64,000 nt of DNA from Dehalococcoidia bacterium (GTDB taxonomy: Bacteria > Chloroflexota > Dehalococcoidia > Lucifugimonadales > SHYT01). The position numbers and the translations under genes are program-made. The DNA is taken from the NCBI GenBank assembly GCA_009692665.1, contig SHYT01000001.1, positions 62,001-126,000 on the forward strand, in the 5' to 3' direction. Below, piece after piece: positions 1-40,491 of this stretch. The notes beneath the pieces were generated by a model that did not search any database, was not told the origin of the DNA, and saw only the letters and a list, made by a program, of their open reading frames with translations. Numbering within the stretch: the stretch's first letter is position 1; each line of letters opens with the position of its first letter.

Positions 1-374
1 GGCACAGCCCGGCGCAGCACAGCCTTCACACGGGCCAGCAGTTCCCGGGAGAAAAACGGCTTAATAACGTAGTCGTCCGCGCCAATCTCCAGGCCCCGCA
101 CACGGTCTTCGTCGCCGCCCTTGCCGGTTACCACAATAATGGGAACTTGAGAGAACTCGCGTATGCTGCGGCAGACGCTGAACCCGTCCATGCCCGGCAT
201 GGCAACGTCCAGCAACACCAGCGATGGAGGCGTCTCAGCTACAATCTGGATGGCTTGCGGCCCATCCTGCGCCGCTACCACCGTGTAGCCTTGCGTCTCA
301 AGGATGCTGCGTTCAAGCTTCAGGATACGCGACTCATCATCCACGGTCAGAATAGTGATACGTCCCTGGGTCAT
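1..374 (-). CDS. Response regulator, receiver domain (partial, runs off left edge)
   Basis: The reverse strand translates from ATG at 374 as MTQGRITILTVDDESRILKL..., a CheY-like receiver domain. The acidic pair is in TVDDES, the phospho-acceptor Asp is in LVLLDVAMPGMDG, the switch Thr is in VVTGKGG and the conserved Lys is in DDYVIKPF. The translation continues through RELLARVKAVLRRA, the usual join to an OmpR/PhoB-type winged-helix output domain, which lies outside the window. A ribosome binding site (GAGGAG, about 5 bases before ATG) supports the start. The family acts as a phosphorylation-controlled transcription regulator. No sensor kinase is visible. Family assignment is firm; the OmpR subclass is inferred from the linker. 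Confidence 0.9.
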   Translation of the reverse strand, partial: MTQGRITILTVDDESRILKLERSILETQGYTVVAAQDGPQAIQIVAETPPSLVLLDVAMPGMDGFSVCRSIREFSQVPIIVVTGKGGDEDRVRGLEIGADDYVIKPFFSRELLARVKAVLRRAV

Positions 375-573
375 GCTGCTCCTCAGAACCATGCTTTTGC
401 AGCGACGGACTTCTAGGGGCTTGATACTTTGCCGCATACTTCCACAGGAATTCCAGATCTATGTCAAGGTGTAAAACCGCAGCATGCAGTGCTACCACTC
501 CCGAACATACGAATGGACACGTTGTGGGGATTGGAAATCTTGTCGCTGTGCGAGCTATCAGGAGGAAGTCAAG

Positions 574-8087: not shown

Positions 8088-10835
8088 ATGACTGAACTCC
8101 ACGACCCAGCTTCTAGCGGCCTCACGCCTCTGCGGCGGCAGTACCTGCGCGTGAAAAAGCAGTTCCCAGACGCGATTGTTCTGTTCCGCCTGGGCGACTT
8201 CTACGAGACGTTCGACGGTGACGCGGAAATCACGGCTCGAGAACTGGAAATAGTGCTCACGGGCCGGGAGATGGGCAAGGGTCAGCGCGTGCCCATGGCG
8301 GGCATCCCCTACCACGCCCTCGACTCGTACCTGGCGAAGCTGGTGCGGCGCGGGCACAAGGTGGCAATCTGCGAGCAGCTTACGGACCCGGCGATGAGCA
8401 AGGGATTAGTGGAGCGGGACGTAGTGCGCGTAGTGACGCCTGGTACAGTGCTGGAACCCGCCCTGCTGGAGCAGAAAGCGAATAACTACCTGATGGCAAT
8501 TGCGCCGCTGGAACTCTCGCCCTCCCCCACCTCGACCTCTCTCAACGGAAGAGGAGATCGGGTCGGGTTGGCGTATGCGGATATCACGACAGGCGAGTTC
8601 GCGGTGACCCAGATGGCGGCAGAGCGAATATCGCTGGAGATGGAGCGGCTTAATCCCGCTGAGGTATTGGTGGCGAAGGGCGGGGTGTACAGGATGCAAC
8701 CACTCATGTTCCGGCAGTCTCAGGACGAACGGGACATCCCTGGTGCGGCGGTCACTGAGCTAGAAGCTCGGGACTTTGATACTGCATCGGCGCAGGAATT
8801 GCTGCAAGAGCACTTTGGCGTGATGACCCTGGCCGGGTTTGGACTGGATGGCATGCCGCTGGCGGTGAGCGCCGCAGGTGCGCTGGTGGCGTATTTGCAG
8901 CGGACGCAAAAGGCCGCGCTCACACAGCTCTCAACCCTTCGCACGTATACCACCGAACGCATTGTGCCGTTAGATCCCCAGACTCGGCGCAACCTGGAGT
9001 TGTTCCAGGCGGGCCGCAGCGGAACGGGCAAGCCTCTGCTGACTGAATTAGACACGACCAAAACGCCCATGGGTGGGCGGCTCTTGCGTGCGTGGCTGGG
9101 CCAGCCACTGTACGACCTCGAAGAGTTGCGCCACCGGCAGCACGTGGTGCAGTGGTTCTTTGGCCGTGCCCTCGTGCGCGATCAGGTAAGCAAGCTGCTG
9201 GGGCGCATTATGGATATTGAGCGACTGGTGACTCGTGTGCAAACGGGGATTGCGCTGCCGCGCGAACTGGTGGCCTTGCGACGAAGCCTGGAGGCGCTGC
9301 CTGAGGTCAAGGGCACGCTGGCAACGGAAGGCTTCCCTGATTGGCTTCTCTCTGACCTGCGGCCTTGTGACGAGGTGGCGGCCTTGCTCGCAAAAGCGAT
9401 TGTGGAAGAGCCTGTTGCGCCGCTTGGCGATGGCGGGGTCATCCGGGAAGGATTCTCGCCGGACTTGGACCAATTGCGCGCGGCGTCGCGTGACGCTACG
9501 GGATACCTGGCAGGGTTGGAGCAGCGAGAGCGGGAACGGGCGGGCATCCCCCTCAAGGTCGGATACAACCGCGTGTTTGGCTACTACATTGAAGTCAGCA
9601 AGGCACATGCTGCAAAGGTGCCGCCGGACTTCATTCGCAGGCAAACGTTGGTGAACGGTGAGCGGTATATCACGCCGGAGCTGAAGGAGCATGAGGCCAC
9701 TGTTCTGGGTGCGCAGGAGCGGATGGCGGAGAGGGAGAGCGCGCTGTTTCGCCAGGTGTGTAAGCAGGTAGCGGACTCTGCGGCGCGCCTGCTAGCAACT
9801 GCTCGGGCCGTGGCGCACGTGGATGTTTTCCTGTCGTTCGCGGATGTAGCAGCCAGGCGCGGGTACTGCCGGCCTGAGCTGAATGACGGGACGGAGATTC
9901 GCATTAAGGCGGGCAGGCATCCGGTAGTGGAGCGCTTGCTGCCACAGGGTACGTTTGTGCCCAACGACTTGGAATTGGGGTCGCCGGAGTGCTCCCTCAT
10001 CATCTTGACCGGCCCGAACATGGCGGGCAAGTCAACGTTCCTGCGACAAACTGAATTGATTGTATTGATGGCGCAGGTGGGCAGCTTTGTGCCTGCGGAC
10101 GAGGCGACGATTGGGCTGGTTGACCGCATCTTCACACGCGTGGGGCTGCAGGACGATCTGACGACCGGTATGTCAACTTTCATGCTGGAGATGGTGGAGA
10201 CCGCTCACATCTTGAATAACGCAACGGCGAAATCGCTGGTAATCCTGGACGAGATTGGGCGCGGTACGAGCACGTATGACGGGCTGGCGATTGCGCGCGC
10301 GGTGGCGGAGCACCTGCACAACAGTCCGAAGCTGGGCTGCAAGACGCTCTTTGCCACGCACTACCATGAACTGACGGAGCTTGCGTCAGCCAATGGTGGA
10401 CTGCCCAGGGTGCGAAACTTCAACGTATCCGCGGTGGAGCAGGACGGCAAGCTGGTGTTCCTGCATTCGCTGCGGCCAGGCGGCGCCGACCGCAGCTACG
10501 GCGTGCATGTGGCGCAGTTGGCAGGCTTGCCAAAGCCAGTCGTGCAACGGGCGGAAGAGGTCCTAAGCCAGTTGGAGAGCGGGCAGGGTAACGAGCCGTC
10601 TGTTCACGGTCCGACAAGTCCTTCAATGCACACAGGGCCTGCTTCGCTCGGCACTGGGCGAACGGGGAAGGGGAGCGTGGTTCGGAACACATCACCACAA
10701 CTGCCGCTGCTGCCATCGAACGAAGTGCATCCGGCGTTTCAGGCGCTGATGGAGCTTGACCTGAACGCAATGACGCCTCTGGAGGCGCTGAACAAGCTAG
10801 CGGAGTTGCAGAGACAGGCGAAACGGGGAAAGTAG
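8088..10835 (+). CDS. mutS: DNA mismatch repair protein MutS
   Basis: 915 aa. ATG 8088 is preferred because GAAGG lies 5 bases upstream; an in-frame GTG at 8073 is possible. The N-terminal mismatch-binding domain has the Phe-X-Glu element in GDFYETFDGD. The connector, lever and clamp domains follow. The C-terminal ATPase shows Walker A GPNMAGKSTFLRQ (about residue 640), Walker B LVILDEIGRGTSTYDG, and the TLFATHYHELTEL segment. The last 70 residues are a low-complexity linker and a short helical tail (FQALMELDLNAMTPLEALNKL), the dimer/tetramerisation tail. The protein recognises mispairs and recruits MutL; no mutL is in the window. There is no sign of truncation. Confidence 0.97.
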   Translation: MTELHDPASSGLTPLRRQYLRVKKQFPDAIVLFRLGDFYETFDGDAEITARELEIVLTGREMGKGQRVPMAGIPYHALDSYLAKLVRRGHKVAICEQLTDPAMSKGLVERDVVRVVTPGTVLEPALLEQKANNYLMAIAPLELSPSPTSTSLNGRGDRVGLAYADITTGEFAVTQMAAERISLEMERLNPAEVLVAKGGVYRMQPLMFRQSQDERDIPGAAVTELEARDFDTASAQELLQEHFGVMTLAGFGLDGMPLAVSAAGALVAYLQRTQKAALTQLSTLRTYTTERIVPLDPQTRRNLELFQAGRSGTGKPLLTELDTTKTPMGGRLLRAWLGQPLYDLEELRHRQHVVQWFFGRALVRDQVSKLLGRIMDIERLVTRVQTGIALPRELVALRRSLEALPEVKGTLATEGFPDWLLSDLRPCDEVAALLAKAIVEEPVAPLGDGGVIREGFSPDLDQLRAASRDATGYLAGLEQRERERAGIPLKVGYNRVFGYYIEVSKAHAAKVPPDFIRRQTLVNGERYITPELKEHEATVLGAQERMAERESALFRQVCKQVADSAARLLATARAVAHVDVFLSFADVAARRGYCRPELNDGTEIRIKAGRHPVVERLLPQGTFVPNDLELGSPECSLIILTGPNMAGKSTFLRQTELIVLMAQVGSFVPADEATIGLVDRIFTRVGLQDDLTTGMSTFMLEMVETAHILNNATAKSLVILDEIGRGTSTYDGLAIARAVAEHLHNSPKLGCKTLFATHYHELTELASANGGLPRVRNFNVSAVEQDGKLVFLHSLRPGGADRSYGVHVAQLAGLPKPVVQRAEEVLSQLESGQGNEPSVHGPTSPSMHTGPASLGTGRTGKGSVVRNTSPQLPLLPSNEVHPAFQALMELDLNAMTPLEALNKLAELQRQAKRGK

Positions 10836-15759: not shown

Positions 15760-17034
15760 CTACCGGGGGTCCAGCACCAGCCCCATGAAGAGCACTGTGT
15801 TGGTAACATTGTCACGCACCAGGGTTAGGAATGGCTGGTCCACCGCGAAGGGCACGGGCATGCTGGTGACGTTTACGCCCACGCTGGTGGCAGCGGCAGC
15901 TTCTGTGCCTTCCTCGTTTACTACCACGAAAGTCTTGTGCTTCACTTCGCTGATGTAAGCGCGCTGCGAGCCGGTGTTCACCATGCCGCTGAAATCGGCG
16001 CTTCCGGCATTGAATGCCTGCGCCATGCCGAGCGACTTCAACGCGTCGTTGAGGGTGATGTCGTACGCAAACGTGAACTTGGGCATCATGAGCGGCACGT
16101 TTCGCTTGCCAAAGCCTGACGACCAGCTTTGCCAGGTCTCCGGCGTCAGTTGTTTCGCTATGCCGTAGGCGTCCTGGTTAGCGGTCGGAACGAAAATGTA
16201 CATGCTGAACCGCCCATCGCCGTAGGGCAGGCGCACCACCTGGTAGCCGTCGCCGTTCTTCGTCTCAAAGTCGCCGATGCGGGACATGGTGGGCACGTTG
16301 ACCTTGGCGCCATTGAGCAGCGTGAACGGCGCATCGCGCGTTTGCTTGGGGTCAAACTGCGTGGACCACTGGCCCTTGAAGTAGAGCGCGTTGACGAGGA
16401 ACAAAATCTTGTCGTCCGCGATGGGCGACGCGACGATGTCCTTGATCTTGCCCTTGGTCTGGCTATTGACCCACGCGTTGATGGTGCCGGCCGCGTCCGG
16501 CTTCGAAAAGTCTAAAGTGTTCACTTCAGCGCCATAGCTTGCTTTGACCCGATCAGAGAATTGCGGCAGGAGTTGTATACCTTGCCGAGCCCAAATGGAG
16601 TTGGCAATGGAGATATCCACTTTGGGCGTAGGCGTCTTGAGCGCTTGAAGCCAGGCGTTTGCCGATTTGTTCACGTCGTCCATGGACATGCCGCTCAGCC
16701 GAAGCGTCTGCTCCATGGCTTTCTGCGTGTCCCCTTGCGCGCCGTTGTACGTCATGGCGAGCGCCACCGCCACGCTGGACGGTGAGACAAACAGGTTCTT
16801 CCCCTTCTCCGTCTGCGATATCTGATTGAAGAGGGCAAAGCCAAACGCGTTTTGGGCTGCGCTAAAGCGCTGGTCAACGACCGGCATTGGCGCCGGTGAC
16901 GGACTAGGGTTTGGCGACGGAGACCCCGACGGGGATGGCGCCGGCGGCTGAGATGAAGGTGGTGTTGGCGCGCATGCCAGAAGGGTGAGCACTGCGGCGG
17001 CGGCCAGAATAAGTATTGACTTACGTCCGTTCAC
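15760..17034 (-). CDS. Serpin-family protease inhibitor, lipoprotein
   Basis: 424 aa from GTG 17034, chosen because GGAGG lies 6 bases upstream and the product then begins with a lipoprotein signal (ILILAAAAVLTLLAC). A Pro/Ser linker of about 30 residues leads to a complete serpin: AFGFALFNQISQTEKGKNLF, SPSSVAVALAMTYNGAQG, ILFLVNALYFKGQW, the inhibitory hinge EEGTEAAAATSVGV and the C-terminal PFLTLVRDNVTNTVLFMGLV. The small-residue hinge is the pattern of inhibitory serpins, which trap serine or cysteine proteases covalently. The reactive-site residues lie in the GVNVTSMPVPF region; the P1 residue cannot be fixed by eye. It would sit on the outer cell surface. Confidence 0.93.
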   Translation of the reverse strand: MNGRKSILILAAAAVLTLLACAPTPPSSQPPAPSPSGSPSPNPSPSPAPMPVVDQRFSAAQNAFGFALFNQISQTEKGKNLFVSPSSVAVALAMTYNGAQGDTQKAMEQTLRLSGMSMDDVNKSANAWLQALKTPTPKVDISIANSIWARQGIQLLPQFSDRVKASYGAEVNTLDFSKPDAAGTINAWVNSQTKGKIKDIVASPIADDKILFLVNALYFKGQWSTQFDPKQTRDAPFTLLNGAKVNVPTMSRIGDFETKNGDGYQVVRLPYGDGRFSMYIFVPTANQDAYGIAKQLTPETWQSWSSGFGKRNVPLMMPKFTFAYDITLNDALKSLGMAQAFNAGSADFSGMVNTGSQRAYISEVKHKTFVVVNEEGTEAAAATSVGVNVTSMPVPFAVDQPFLTLVRDNVTNTVLFMGLVLDPR

Positions 17035-36199: not shown

Positions 36200-37192
36200 A
36201 TGGTAAATATTGCTGTCCTTGATGACTACCAGGGCGTGGCGCTGACGCTGGCTAACTGGAAGGCGCTGCCGGGCGACGCGCGCGTGACCTCATTTCGAGA
36301 CCATCTTGACGATCAGGCTGCCGTCATTCGGCGGCTCCGTGACTTTGAGGTGGTGTGCGTCATGCGCGAGCGAACGCCGCTGCCGCGCACCGTGCTTCAG
36401 CAACTGCCCAAGCTGCAGCTTCTTGTGACCACTGGCGGAGCAAATGCTTCCATTGACATGAACGCAGCCACAGAACTGGGCATCCTTGTCTGCTCCACGG
36501 GCAATTTTGGAAACCCGACGGCCGAGCTGACATGGGGCATCATCCTAGGGATGCTGCGAAGCATTCCCCAAGAAGACCACGCTGTACGCGCCGGGAAGTG
36601 GCAGACGTCGGTGGGCATTGGCATGCAGGACAAAACCTTGGGGATTATTGGGCTTGGCAACTTGGGGTCACACGTGGCGACCATAGGCAAGGCATTTAAG
36701 ATGCACATCCTCGCGTGGAGTCAGAACCTCACGGCAGAACGGGCACGACAGTTTGGCGCGACGCTGGTGTCGAAAGACGAGCTAATGTCACAGTCAGATA
36801 TCGTGACGATTCACACGCGGCTGAGTGAGCGCACACGGGGACTGATTGGAGCGCGCGAGCTGGCGCTCATGAAACCCACGGCTTATCTGGTGAACACATC
36901 GCGCGGGCCGATTGTAACGGAGGATGCGATGGTGCAGGCGTTGCGCGAGCGGCGCATTGCGGGCGCGGGGCTGGACGTGTTTGACCAAGAACCCTTGCGG
37001 GCAGATCACCCTCTACTGAGTATGAATAACGTGGTACTCACGCCGCATCTTGGGTACGTTACCAAGGAAACGTATGGAGTCTTCTACCGGGACACAGTAG
37101 AAGATATTGCCGCGTTTCTGGAAGGCAAGCCGATGCGCATGATCAACCCGCAAGCTCTGGAGAACACCAAGCGACGAACGATGCGTCCGTAA
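36200..37192 (+). CDS. D-2-hydroxyacid dehydrogenase
   Basis: 330 aa, GGGG/AAAGGGG upstream of ATG. NAD-dependent oxidoreductase of the 2-hydroxyacid family (SerA/GyaR group). Rossmann motif LGIIGLGNLGSHVATIGKAF. The catalytic triad is complete: Arg in VNTSRGPIV, Glu in DVFDQEPL, His in VLTPHLGYV. The substrate cannot be deduced, and no ACT or regulatory domain is present. It faces the truncated phoU remnant downstream. Compare the related gene at 55398, in which the Arg and Glu are not conserved. Confidence 0.9.
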   Translation: MVNIAVLDDYQGVALTLANWKALPGDARVTSFRDHLDDQAAVIRRLRDFEVVCVMRERTPLPRTVLQQLPKLQLLVTTGGANASIDMNAATELGILVCSTGNFGNPTAELTWGIILGMLRSIPQEDHAVRAGKWQTSVGIGMQDKTLGIIGLGNLGSHVATIGKAFKMHILAWSQNLTAERARQFGATLVSKDELMSQSDIVTIHTRLSERTRGLIGARELALMKPTAYLVNTSRGPIVTEDAMVQALRERRIAGAGLDVFDQEPLRADHPLLSMNNVVLTPHLGYVTKETYGVFYRDTVEDIAAFLEGKPMRMINPQALENTKRRTMRP

Positions 37193-37210: not shown

Positions 37211-37347
37211 CTACTTTTTGACGTTCTTTGGCACGTTCATTTCTTCCATTTTCCCGGTGACCAGGAAGATGACACGTTCAGCAATATTGGTGGCCCGGTC
37301 CGCTGTGCGCTCCACGTCATGCGCCACCCACAGCAAGTTTGACTGAG
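37211..37347 (-). pseudogene. phoU: phoU C-terminal remnant
   Basis: The minus strand reads QSNLLWVAHDVERTADRATN then IAERVIFLVTGKMEEMNVPK and stops at 37211-37213. This is the last helix bundle of PhoU, including the metal-binding-type ER-X-ADR-X-X-NIAE motif. Upstream (beyond about 37347) the frame has stops and no PhoU sequence, so roughly the first three quarters of the gene are gone. The break point coincides with the start of the region leading to the DUF47-PiT pair. Confidence 0.8.
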
Positions 37348-37421
37348 CACATCAAGATAAATATCATAGTGCCAGCGGGAAAGGCCAAAAGATGTTCCAG
37401 ACTAAGGCGCAACTTTAGAAC

Positions 37422-37436
37422 TGGAATACCATTCCA
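37422..37436. promoter_or_regulatory. Small palindrome upstream of the DUF47 gene
   Basis: TGGAAT-ACC-ATTCCA, perfect inverted repeat, 44 bases before the ATG at 37480. Possible operator; no direct evidence. Confidence 0.3.
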
Positions 37437-37479
37437 AAAGTCAATCTTCATCCTTTCTTTTTGTCAGCAAGGAGATGCC

Positions 37480-38112
37480 ATGAGATTCCCTACCTTCGTA
37501 CCGAGAGAGGAGAAGTTCTTCTTTCTCTTACACCAGAGCGCGGAGAATCTGCAAAAGGCTTCGATTAAACTACAAAACCTCTTCAACAATTATGAAAATG
37601 TATCCGCAAAGGTTAAGGAAATCAAGGATCTGGAAGAATTTGGGGACCAAATTATCCATGATATTTTCCAGGCATTGCATCGCACGTTCGTGACGCCTAT
37701 TGATCGTGAGGACATCAGCGCGCTGGCGCAGCGTCTGGACGACTTTATTGACGCAATCGAAGAGGTCTCTAACTACTTGATTGAGTACAGAATTCAAAGG
37801 CCAACAGAATACGCTCAACATTTGGCAACCATCCTCGTTCATTCGGCCGACCAATTGGAAAAGGCCACCGCGCTGCTGCACTATCGAGGATCTAAGCTGA
37901 AGCAAATACTGCCGCACACAGTGGAGATTAACCGCCTGGAGAACGAGGCGGATCAAGTCATTGGACGAGCGATGGGCGACTTGTTTGACAACAACACAGA
38001 CGCCATTTACATCATGAAGTGGCGTGACATTTATAACGATCTGGAATCCGCCACGGACCGGGCTGAAGATGCTGCAAACGTTCTCGAAGCGATTGTGCTC
38101 AAGAATGCGTAG
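37480..38112 (+). CDS. DUF47/PhoU-like phosphate transport accessory protein
   Basis: 210 aa from ATG 37480 with AAGGAGA 6 bases upstream; the longer open frame lacks a ribosome site. An all-helical PhoU-like protein: FFFLLHQSAENLQKASIKLQ, IKDLEEFGDQIIHDIFQAL, TPIDREDISALAQRLDDFID and the repeat NRLENEADQVIGRAMGDLF, with Glu/Asp clusters that bind metal ions in relatives. It almost always precedes a PiT transporter, as here (38 bases), and is thought to control its activity. Confidence 0.92.
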   Translation: MRFPTFVPREEKFFFLLHQSAENLQKASIKLQNLFNNYENVSAKVKEIKDLEEFGDQIIHDIFQALHRTFVTPIDREDISALAQRLDDFIDAIEEVSNYLIEYRIQRPTEYAQHLATILVHSADQLEKATALLHYRGSKLKQILPHTVEINRLENEADQVIGRAMGDLFDNNTDAIYIMKWRDIYNDLESATDRAEDAANVLEAIVLKNA

Positions 38113-38150
38113 AAACCATCACAATTGCGACGACCTGGCCGTGATGCCCC

Positions 38151-39167
38151 ATGTTTGAGATGTCGTTCCTATTCTTGGTGCTGGTCATCACCGTGGCAGT
38201 CATCTTCGACTTCGTTAACGGGTTTCATGATTCCGCCAACGCGATTGCCACCGTCGTTTCGACACGCGTTCTTACCATTCTCACCGCAGTCATCATGGCT
38301 GGCGTGCTAAATTTCGTGGGCGCATTGTCGGGTACTGCCGTAGCTAAGGTGGTAGGTGCTGGAATCGTAGCGCCTGGCGCCATCACGATGACCACCGTGG
38401 CGGCTGGCCTGATGGCAGCCATTGTCTGGGAAATCCTCACCTATTTCCTAAAATTGCCTGTTAGCGCCAGCCACAGCCTCATAGCTGGAGTCGCGGGTGC
38501 AGGTGTCGCCACTGCCGGATTTAAGGTGCTGGTATGGACAGGTATCAGCAAGACTCTGCTCGGCGTCATATTGTCGCCACTCGTCGGATTCATCATCGGT
38601 TACGTAGTAATGCTTGCGCTGTATTGGCTCCTTCGCCGCGCTAGCCAAAGCATGGTAAATCACACGTTTGGCCGATTGCAGATCGTGTCCGCCGCGGCCA
38701 TGGCTTATAGCCACGGCTCTAACGACGCTCAGAAAACGATGGGGATCATCACTCTAGCGCTGTCCGTCCACTATAGTTGGGCGGCGCGGGGCATTCCATT
38801 TGAGGTACCTTTTTGGGTTATCGTTCTTTCGGGAATAGCCATCGCACTGGGAACGTACGCTGGCGGGTATCGCATGATCAAGACTCTAGGTGTGCGGATT
38901 GTGCAGATGCAGCCAATCAACGGCTTTGCCGCCGAAAGTTCGGCCGCGGTTGTGATCGAAACAGCGTCCCGCTTTGGATTCCCACTGAGTACGACTCACG
39001 TCATTAGCTCGACTATTATGGGCCAGGGTGCAACCCGCCGGGTCTCTGCTGTCCGATGGGGCGTCGTTCGCAGCATCGTGCTGGCGTGGGTCATCACCTT
39101 TCCATTTTGCGGACTGCTCGGAGCGCTCATCTATAGGCTCCTGAAACTGGCGCTCAGCGCCTTTTAG
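38151..39167 (+). CDS. pit: PiT-family inorganic phosphate transporter
   Basis: 338 aa. Low-affinity, cation-coupled phosphate permease of the inner membrane. The two duplicated signature segments are clear: IFDFVNGFHDSANAIATVVS near the N-terminus and SAAAMAYSHGSNDAQKTMGI in the second half, with further helices GAITMTTVAAGLMAAIVWEI and LPVSASHSLIAGVAGAG / FPLSTTHVISSTIMGQGAT. About ten membrane helices. Length matches short bacterial PiT proteins. Forms a two-gene operon with the DUF47 gene; the operon sits inside a decayed phosphate-regulation locus. Confidence 0.95.
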   Translation: MFEMSFLFLVLVITVAVIFDFVNGFHDSANAIATVVSTRVLTILTAVIMAGVLNFVGALSGTAVAKVVGAGIVAPGAITMTTVAAGLMAAIVWEILTYFLKLPVSASHSLIAGVAGAGVATAGFKVLVWTGISKTLLGVILSPLVGFIIGYVVMLALYWLLRRASQSMVNHTFGRLQIVSAAAMAYSHGSNDAQKTMGIITLALSVHYSWAARGIPFEVPFWVIVLSGIAIALGTYAGGYRMIKTLGVRIVQMQPINGFAAESSAAVVIETASRFGFPLSTTHVISSTIMGQGATRRVSAVRWGVVRSIVLAWVITFPFCGLLGALIYRLLKLALSAF

Positions 39168-39182
39168 GCAGCTTTCCGCAGC

Positions 39183-39251
39183 GTGATTGTATCGAAGGGC
39201 TTCGAGAAGGTTTTCTTCGTCCTCTACTACCAGGACTGTTGGTTCAGTCAA
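39183..39251 (-). pseudogene. Response regulator N-terminal remnant
   Basis: From TTG 39251 (GGAG 6 bases upstream) the minus strand reads MTEPTVLVVEDEENLLEALRYN, the first strand, acidic pair and first helix of a PhoB/RegX-like receiver. After about 22 codons the match ends abruptly at the 3' end of pit and continues as antisense of that gene. The start and RBS are intact, so only the remainder has been lost. Confidence 0.75.
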
Positions 39252-39443
39252 TGTGTGCTCCGGCTGACCATGTCAAAAGCATTATACGGTGAGCAGATAC
39301 CATCCTTGCTGCACTTCCGAACCACTCCGGATACCACCCTCCGGCGTGGCCGGCCAGTTTGGACGGCAGTACCGACTGCCCCCTACAGCGAAGTCACACT
39401 ACGCACGAGCACTCGGAACGTGAAACGGGGGGGGTGCTTGGCG

Positions 39444-40349
39444 TTAGGCCAGCAGCTGTACCAGGCGGATCACGACAGTCAGCGTGACAATACTCGCCGC
39501 CGTTGAGAACACCACGCTGGAGGTCACAAGGGCCGCGTTTGCGGAAAACTCTGTGGCAAGGATGGTAGTAAAGACCGCCGTAGGCATAGCAGCACCAACG
39601 ATCAGCACCTGACGGTCAAGCCCTTCAAGGCCTAGGAGCATTGCCAGAGGCACCGCGATGACAGCAGATAGCACCAAGCGAATGAAGACGCTCACACCCA
39701 TAGCCACTGGCTGCTTCAACGCGCCGCCACCAAGTTGGAACCCCAGCACTACCAACATGGTTGGAATAGATGCCTGACCCAGCAGGTTTAGCGGCTGGAA
39801 AATTGTTGCGGGAATTGGGATATGCACCAGGTTCACCAAGATGGCCGCGAGCGCAGCGTAGATGCTAGGGAGGCGAAGCACACCCAGCATTGGCCGCCAC
39901 CCCACGGCGGAACTGCGCGCAGCAATGAACGTACCAAGCGTCCAGATCAACACGGACTGGGTGACAAAAAAGGTAATCGCCTTGCCCTGCGCTTCTTGCC
40001 CAAACGCAAACGTGATGACCGGTATAGCAAGATTCGCGGCATTCATGAACGTGCTGGTCAGGAGAATGGCGCTTTCTGTTGACCTATCCGCACGTATCAC
40101 CCTGGCGGCAATCCACCCCAGCACAAGCGTACAAAACGCCAGCAGCAGGACAAAGATGCCCACTTTCAGGAACGCGCCATCTCCAAGTTCGGTGCGCGAC
40201 AAAGACGTGAAGACCAGCGCAGGGCTGAAAAGGTAGAGGATGAGCAGGTTAAGCACGGCTGGGGACGGCTTTTTCCAGCGTTGGATTACCAGACCCAAAG
40301 CAGCAACGAGAAAGACGGGGAGAATGACGTTGACAAAGATTCCAAGCAC
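39444..40349 (-). CDS. AEC-family (auxin efflux carrier-like) permease
   Basis: About 301 aa from GTG 40349; the frame is open to 40421 but that part is not membrane-like. Ten or so hydrophobic segments, with family features IFVNVILPVFLVAALGLVIQ at the N-terminus, LLILYLFSPALVFTSLS, STFMNAANLAIPVITFAFG (the conserved N-X-X-x-G/P region) and VGAAMPTAVFTTILATEF in the C-terminal half. Such carriers export or import small carboxylates or auxin-like acids. No ribosome site is seen, but TACAAT stands about 6 bases before the GTG, so the transcript may be leaderless. Substrate unknown. Confidence 0.85.
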   Translation of the reverse strand: MLGIFVNVILPVFLVAALGLVIQRWKKPSPAVLNLLILYLFSPALVFTSLSRTELGDGAFLKVGIFVLLLAFCTLVLGWIAARVIRADRSTESAILLTSTFMNAANLAIPVITFAFGQEAQGKAITFFVTQSVLIWTLGTFIAARSSAVGWRPMLGVLRLPSIYAALAAILVNLVHIPIPATIFQPLNLLGQASIPTMLVVLGFQLGGGALKQPVAMGVSVFIRLVLSAVIAVPLAMLLGLEGLDRQVLIVGAAMPTAVFTTILATEFSANAALVTSSVVFSTAASIVTLTVVIRLVQLLA

Positions 40350-40491
40350 CGCGCTATTGTAGCAGAAGAACCCTGCTTCTTCCGGCTGTTGACGCGCCAC
40401 AAACGCAATGGTATGTTCCAATTGGAAGGCCTTGTGGCGTGATTATAGGTGGTGAGAAGGCTTTCACGTGAATACTCGTTAGAGGCCATGC

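Follow-up and report, generated by a model that had tools for sequence, protein, structure and literature searches.

Probable in-place replacement of a phoB-phoR-pstSCAB-phoU operon by a DUF47-pit pair in a Dehalococcoidia bacterium

We describe a DUF47-pit gene pair that has, in all probability, replaced a phoB-phoR-pstSCAB-phoU operon in place in the genome of a Dehalococcoidia bacterium, as one of several such exchanges in its order, a reading to which we assign a probability of roughly 0.88. The ends of the old regulated operon are still legible on either side of the new importer, making this a scarred case of the replacement of one uptake strategy by another. Taken with the mutual avoidance of PiT and PhoU across the order and the exchanges in other genera, the case makes it testable whether a single recombination event removes phosphate regulation and whether the change is selected by phosphate supply.

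Results and discussion

Two ends of a pho operon enclose a DUF47-pit pair

Unless stated otherwise, positions are those of the window, the whole 64,000-nucleotide stretch of DNA that was analysed. The segment of interest (37211–39251) lies on contig C25 of a draft genome of 1.58 Mb in 31 contigs, which is 91.3% complete with 3.65% contamination. When the window's RpoB was compared with 16 named genomes, 13 matched, and the three top scores were to Chloroflexota records (61% over 960 residues to one from Dehalococcoidales, 58% and 62% over parts to two others); in other phyla the top-scoring pieces were shorter, at about 56–60%, and the organism probably belongs to Chloroflexota. The features and neighbours of the segment are as follows.

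36200–37192, plus strand: D-2-hydroxyacid dehydrogenase gene (PF02826, E 3.1e-60), the left neighbour, convergent with the phoU remnant
37211–37338, minus strand: 3' end of phoU, a remnant of 41 codons and the stop (PF01895; DNA and protein likeness to relatives)
37339–37479: leader of the inserted segment, 42% GC (41.8%)
37480–38112, plus strand: DUF47 (PhoU_div) gene, probable Pit accessory protein (PF01865, E 5.9e-27; solved relative 3l39, E 8.5e-29)
38151–39167, plus strand: pit, PiT-family transporter, intact, 338 aa (PF01384 positions 1–350 of 350, E 5.5e-90; solved relative 6l85, E 3.3e-36)
39168–39185: junction zone from the pit stop to the phoB remnant, into which weak PhoB likeness may reach as far as 39171
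39186–39251, minus strand: 5' end of a phoB-type response regulator gene, a remnant of 22 codons with a TTG start (aligns with PhoB of relatives)
39444–40421, minus strand: AEC-type membrane transporter gene (PF03547, E 1.7e-32), the right neighbour

The initial annotation had described a minus-strand regulator start and a phoU end flanking a plus-strand DUF47-pit pair, and this arrangement holds, with coordinates right to a few bases (phoB 39251–39186, phoU 37338–37211). On the phoU side the homology spans 37338 to about 37223, and the open frame continues to the stop at 37211–37213; the last 45 or so codons of phoU that had been proposed are indeed a phoU tail, now refined to 41 codons and the stop. 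The tail matches positions 68–89 of the 89 in PF01895 with an E value of 2.9e-4, slightly below the curated Pfam cut-off, and is 74–85% identical in DNA to phoU 3' ends in relatives of the order and 60–88% identical in protein to the order's PhoU over 26–38 residues. Its best tblastn matches have E values of 2.5e-17 to 1.8e-13, which exclude a chance likeness. An alignment with 33 phoU copies from 31 relatives, the half gene of G002 (see below) included, places the boundary of homology at 37337/37338: mean DNA identity of the window to these copies falls from 72% within phoU to 19% in the insert, and over that second stretch the relatives are 62% identical among themselves.

The phoB remnant (MTEPTVLVVEDEENLLEALRYN) begins with TTG at 39251 behind GGAG at 39261–39258 and can be aligned from residue 1 with PhoB of four relatives (G001, G003, G013 and G020), confirming the 22-codon regulator start with its ribosome-binding site. 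The start stands at the same position in all of them and is TTG in the window, G003, G013 and G020, and GTG in G001. Identity drops past 39186, or perhaps past 39171, to which one alignment extends (27 aa, 59%), and the gap between the remnant and the pit stop (39165–39167) is 0–18 bp. Taken alone the PhoB piece is weaker than the phoU tail, its best DNA E value being 4.7e-9 in a small search set; its order and strand are nonetheless right. The stretch 39252–39443 had no meaningful match in the relatives' loci searched. A TATAAT hexamer lies at 39286–39281 (minus strand), about 30 bp ahead of the old phoB start, from where it would read antisense into pit; by eye, similar hexamers stand before phoB in some relatives, and a promoter scan gave no support.

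Between the retained ~66 and 128 bp of the old cluster lies ~1.84 kb of new DNA, in which the PF01865 gene is directly upstream of a full-length PF01384 gene on the same strand, 38 bp apart. The DUF47 start is most likely the ATG at 37480 behind AAGGAG, rather than the TTG at 37339, and with this start ~141 bp separate the phoU remnant from DUF47; both remnants are thus cut off close to the ends of the inserted pair, as originally noted. The leader had no meaningful match in the relatives' loci compared. Neither the promoter-like TTGACT-17-TATCAT at 37339–37367 (plus strand) nor the result of a terminator scan was above chance. The composition of the pair, a point raised in the initial annotation, differs from that of most neighbours: GC is 47.7% in DUF47 and 55.7% in pit, versus 60.4 ± 2.3% in 31 window open reading frames of at least 250 aa, and GC3 is low as well. 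Composition alone is no proof of foreign origin, because the neighbouring AEC gene is also AT-rich (56.1% GC).

The operon is intact in relatives and missing from the rest of the genome

In G001, G003, G013 and G020 the genes to which the two pieces belong stand first and last in a single phoB-phoR-pstSCAB-phoU cluster, so that the claim of a broken pho operon stands. From phoB start to phoU end the cluster measures 6.4 kb in G001, 6.9 kb in G003, 7.3 kb in G020 and 8.8 kb in G013, with a PhoB-type gene first, phoU last, the pst genes between them and all on one strand. The order in G003 is phoB, phoR, pstS, pstC, pstA, pstB, phoU, and the NCBIfam models for PstS, PstC, PstA, PstB and PhoU all score over their cut-offs there. 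The G003 regulator and kinase fall below the PhoB and PhoR cut-offs, the YycF and WalK models scoring higher and also below cut-off; since neither PhoB nor PhoR exceeds its cut-off, the names phoB and phoR rest on place. The cluster is complete in G020 by Pfam and tblastn and in G001 by tblastn; in G013 it was traced by tblastn, with PstC over cut-off, and two extra open reading frames lie between phoR and pstS.

The flanks common to the old and new genes lie, in the window, inside the operon, as the phoB start and the phoU end. A search for the undisturbed ancestral site, flanked by the same genes as in the window, found none: no genome of the same genus came up among the relatives compared, G001 and G002, the other two members of the family, gave no match to the AEC transporter (6 of 20 genomes matched, the window's own included), and the flank comparison found no flanking gene common to the window and the pho locus of G001. 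In that comparison G002 was entered as a pit locus and set against G001 only. In the window's own genome, the counterparts of the G001 genes upstream of phoB are on contig C13, and the pho neighbourhood has therefore changed within the family. As a control, the G001 pho locus was compared with six other places in the window's genome (75 kb in total); one of these had genes in common with it, so that the within-family control is not clean.

A profile search of the 91% complete assembly found no PF01895 match besides the remnant, and no full copy of the phoU or phoB from which the remnants derive was found, so that the initial reading also survives the possibility that they duplicate genes elsewhere. 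No PstC scored above cut-off in the genome, the best reaching 69.7 bits against 196.45. By eye, the best PstC-like permease reads as part of a putative sulfate gene cluster: the PstC-like permeases on C13 follow an ATP-sulfurylase gene, named from likeness to G002 genes that were named by Pfam, and precede an ABC ATPase gene. The searches thus found neither a full phoU nor a full pst operon at another place in the assembly. The NptA-type importer (Na_Pi_cotrans) was likewise absent by profile search. Only stubs of the phoBR-pstSCAB-phoU operon are present in the assembly, and its absence from the whole genome is likely, about 9% of the genome being missing from the assembly.

Four receiver-domain genes were found in the genome, none of which is the phoB remnant. 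Three of the four look broken, with in-frame stops or a broken C-terminal half:

Window 1–437 (minus strand), L159 about 9680–10440: broken receiver-domain gene
G000:C22:76997–77320: broken receiver-domain gene
G000:C20:60978–61256: broken receiver-domain gene

Barring errors of assembly, two-component regulators seem to be decaying generally in this genome.

PiT and PhoU avoid each other across the order

Among 250 genomes of the order, the window's own included, PiT was above cut-off in 44 and PhoU in 201; 12 had both, 32 PiT only, 189 PhoU only and 17 neither. PhoU is thus present in 12/44 genomes with PiT versus 189/206 without it (Fisher p 2e-18, kinship ignored), and the 12 include G002, whose phoU is a half gene only. 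A hand count restricted to genomes with completeness of 90% or more and contamination of 5% or less gave PhoU in 2/14 with PiT versus 79/81 without, and in a set of 59 genomes, again with the window's own, PstC was found in 2/19 versus 37/40. A quick rpoB tree built for 57 of the 59 genomes (G007 and G046, with no rpoB match, were left out) has at least 11 changes in PiT; of seven independent pairs, an average of 5.7 show PhoU loss together with PiT and 0 show the opposite (median p 0.03, range 0.016–0.125). After correction for kinship the avoidance is modest but one-sided.

Exchange at the same place in other genera

The flanks of 38 of the 44 pit loci (G013, G036, G039, G040, G070 and G077 were left out) were compared with those of 49 pho loci from the 201 genomes with PhoU. 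In at least four other genera pit occupies the pho site of relatives, in some on one side only; the genomes concerned are G002, G068/G069, G066, G173/G044 and G181. Outer flanks are common to old and new genes on both sides in two comparisons, G069 with G061/G063 and G002 with G001. The two genes that flank DUF47-pit in G069 are those on either side of the complete phoB...phoU operon in G061 and G063, and G068, where a contig ends, agrees with these pho flanks on one side. In G002, of the window's family, a phoU half is followed ~9 kb further on by DUF47-pit, both inside the outer genes that enclose the pho operon of G001. This C-terminal half (L064:15797–16144) has, by eye, an in-frame stop near its start, and its frame is open only from about 15839–15848; it adjoins sufB and a repeat-like stretch, and adds to the window's scar another trace of pho loss within the family.

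G066 was compared on one side: a run of four collinear genes found ahead of phoB in G065, of the same genus, here stands before an aquaporin-type (MIP) gene and the pit pair. G181 has kept phoB-phoR, followed by DUF47-pit and then by the MIP gene that follows phoU in G020. The MIP gene lies at L068:4432–5121 in G020, after phoU, and borders pit at L269:10722–11417 in G066 and L275:4073–4717 in G181. DUF47-pit adjoins an intact-looking phoB-phoR in G181 (L275:4832–9032) and in G172 (L293:2453–6621), and in the genera of these two, PiT rather than Pst may be what the regulator pair controls or accompanies.

G173 has four collinear genes (52–86% identity) on one side and part of a helicase gene (54–56%) on the other; in G007 and G175 the same flanks enclose pstB-phoU and a second DUF47 gene, and G044 agrees on the helicase side. 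Because a UvrD-type helicase is found by pit, or close to it, in other families too, these flanks do not give the direction of change in G173/G044. A UvrD/PcrA-type helicase was seen beside pit in seven genomes of several families (G044, G173, G014, G021, G048, G082 and G180), ~2.3 kb away in G082, and Pfam was run on two of them:

G044 L261:2267–4468: helicase gene by pit
G173 L266:402–1739: helicase gene by pit

The G173 open frame fuses part of a sugar transporter with the helicase end. The second, divergent DUF47 gene, 33% identical to that of the window, follows phoU at L267:17709–18386 in G175 and L074:11331–11927 in G007, and a profile search found no PiT gene in either genome.

Of the 27 pit genomes with a pho locus in the same family, nine share a flanking gene with it at 60% identity or more (15/91 pairs), versus 10/1771 pairs from different families; between pho loci a flanking gene is common to 24/60 same-family versus 7/1116 different-family pairs. 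Since the remaining 18 of the 27 share no flanking gene at 60% identity, in-place exchange is not a general rule. Two of the nine were rejected as swaps, G207 (the common gene ~11 kb from phoU) and G180 (a single common gene ~3 kb beyond phoB).

How the replacement may have come about

We suggest that an ancestor carried phoB-phoR-pstS-pstC-pstA-pstB-phoU at this site, and that the ~1.84 kb DUF47-pit segment, in opposite orientation, replaced all of it save 22 phoB codons and 41 phoU codons. The DNA would have been exchanged either by recombination with an incoming fragment or by insertion followed by deletions. The initial annotation had favoured a one-step replacement; replacement in place is upheld, and the single step is not, since an insertion followed by deletion both ways leaves the same scars. 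A course in several steps, with pit inserted into or next to a decaying pho operon and later deletions trimming both sides, is a variant of the main reading whose odds overlap with it, and we would put it at about even. The G002 locus speaks for it, with a decayed phoU half and DUF47-pit some distance apart within the old outer flanks, as do the broken-looking receiver-domain genes, which suggest that two-component loss proceeds without insertion. Set against this, both stubs of the window abut the insert and their frames are free of stops, whereas a slow decay ought to have left more or longer debris.

It is highly improbable that the assembler joined a pair and stubs from different molecules, as the contig number and contamination of the draft and the deviating GC of the insert might lead one to suspect: a random join would not set a phoB start and a phoU end in the right strand and order around a phosphate gene pair, searches of the genome did not recover the remainder of the operon, and other, separate assemblies show substitutions at the same place.

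From the PiT family and the solved relative 6l85 we infer that the pair imports phosphate. As judged from the families, PiT, an ion-driven low-affinity carrier, would then bring in phosphate, DUF47 would take over from PhoU as partner protein, serving PiT as PhoU serves Pst (PMC13170248), and the PhoB-PhoR-Pst switch would be lost, so that phosphate genes would no longer be switched by that system. Some members of the PiT family are sulfate permeases, and we give very little credence to the window's transporter carrying sulfate like CysP, with phosphate entering by a system absent from the assembly: CysP is a weak NCBIfam match (63.8 bits, cut-off 400), while PitA scores higher (140.7 bits, cut-off 800, also below cut-off), the partner is a DUF47 gene, what reads as a sulfate ABC transporter lies elsewhere in the genome, and PiT and PhoU avoid each other across the order.

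The best match to the window's PiT among 80 listed is from Nitrospirota (59% identity), and in the PiT tree the order's sequences (18 rows) stand beside Nitrospirota and one Deferribacterota row; no close donor appeared among the 80 best matches listed or in the PiT trees. A single PiT clade of the window and G002 was not rejected (p 0.146) on a tree whose bootstrap was unsettled and in which G224 is a very long branch, and the two are 78% identical in rpoB and only 66% in PiT. The PiT genes of the genomes with same-place swaps are spread over several branches of the PiT tree.

More speculatively, and with somewhat less than even confidence, the pho locus may be an exchange site in this order, where Pst-Pho and DUF47-Pit cassettes repeatedly displace each other, with phosphate supply as the driving force and common flanking genes or operon ends as an aid; single recombination events would then take a lineage from regulated uptake of high affinity to unregulated uptake of low affinity, or back.

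Comparison with known systems

DUF47-pit (orfA-pit) operons occur in bacteria such as Sinorhizobium, and there as here an accessory PhoU-like gene adjoins pit. Measured against the phoB-phoR-pstSCAB-phoU operon, the remnants are its first and last gene, and the five between are gone. As in gene displacement in situ, in the accounts available to us, a new set stands in the exact place of a resident set with the same role; the difference here is that the replacing transporter is unrelated to the one replaced and that regulatory genes were lost too. In the open literature, covered mostly through titles and the openings of abstracts, we found no report of in-place replacement between Pst-Pho and DUF47-Pit in bacteria.

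A related arrangement is that of PitR and PitA, in which an accessory PhoU-like gene (PitR) adjoins pit (PitA) and each accessory regulator serves its own transporter (PMC13170248). More than one accessory regulator was present in 48% of the genomes in that survey, in contrast to this order, where PiT and PhoU are mostly mutually exclusive. PitR would appear to be a member of the DUF47 family, although the name DUF47 does not occur in that text (PMC13170248).

A known case of the same kind is archaeal, that of 'Ca. N. brevis', of the genus Nitrosopelagicus. Pst and DUF47-Pit are reported to substitute for each other at one locus in this marine thaumarchaeon, two ocean sites differing (PMC9239043). 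PstSABC and DUF47-pit there swap at the same location beside a phoU gene, and a MIP gene near phoU is named as well (PMC9239043). The archaeal case concerns populations of one species in which phoU was reportedly kept; here it is a bacterial order, and in the window phoB, phoR and nearly all of phoU are gone, leaving stubs at both ends. The alternation of Pst and DUF47-Pit at one location was seen in other genera of the window's order, in some on one side only. Thus, while the kind of exchange itself is known from the archaeal report (PMC9239043), what is new here is the presence of scars at both ends, the loss of phoBR as well, and the recurrence in a bacterial order.
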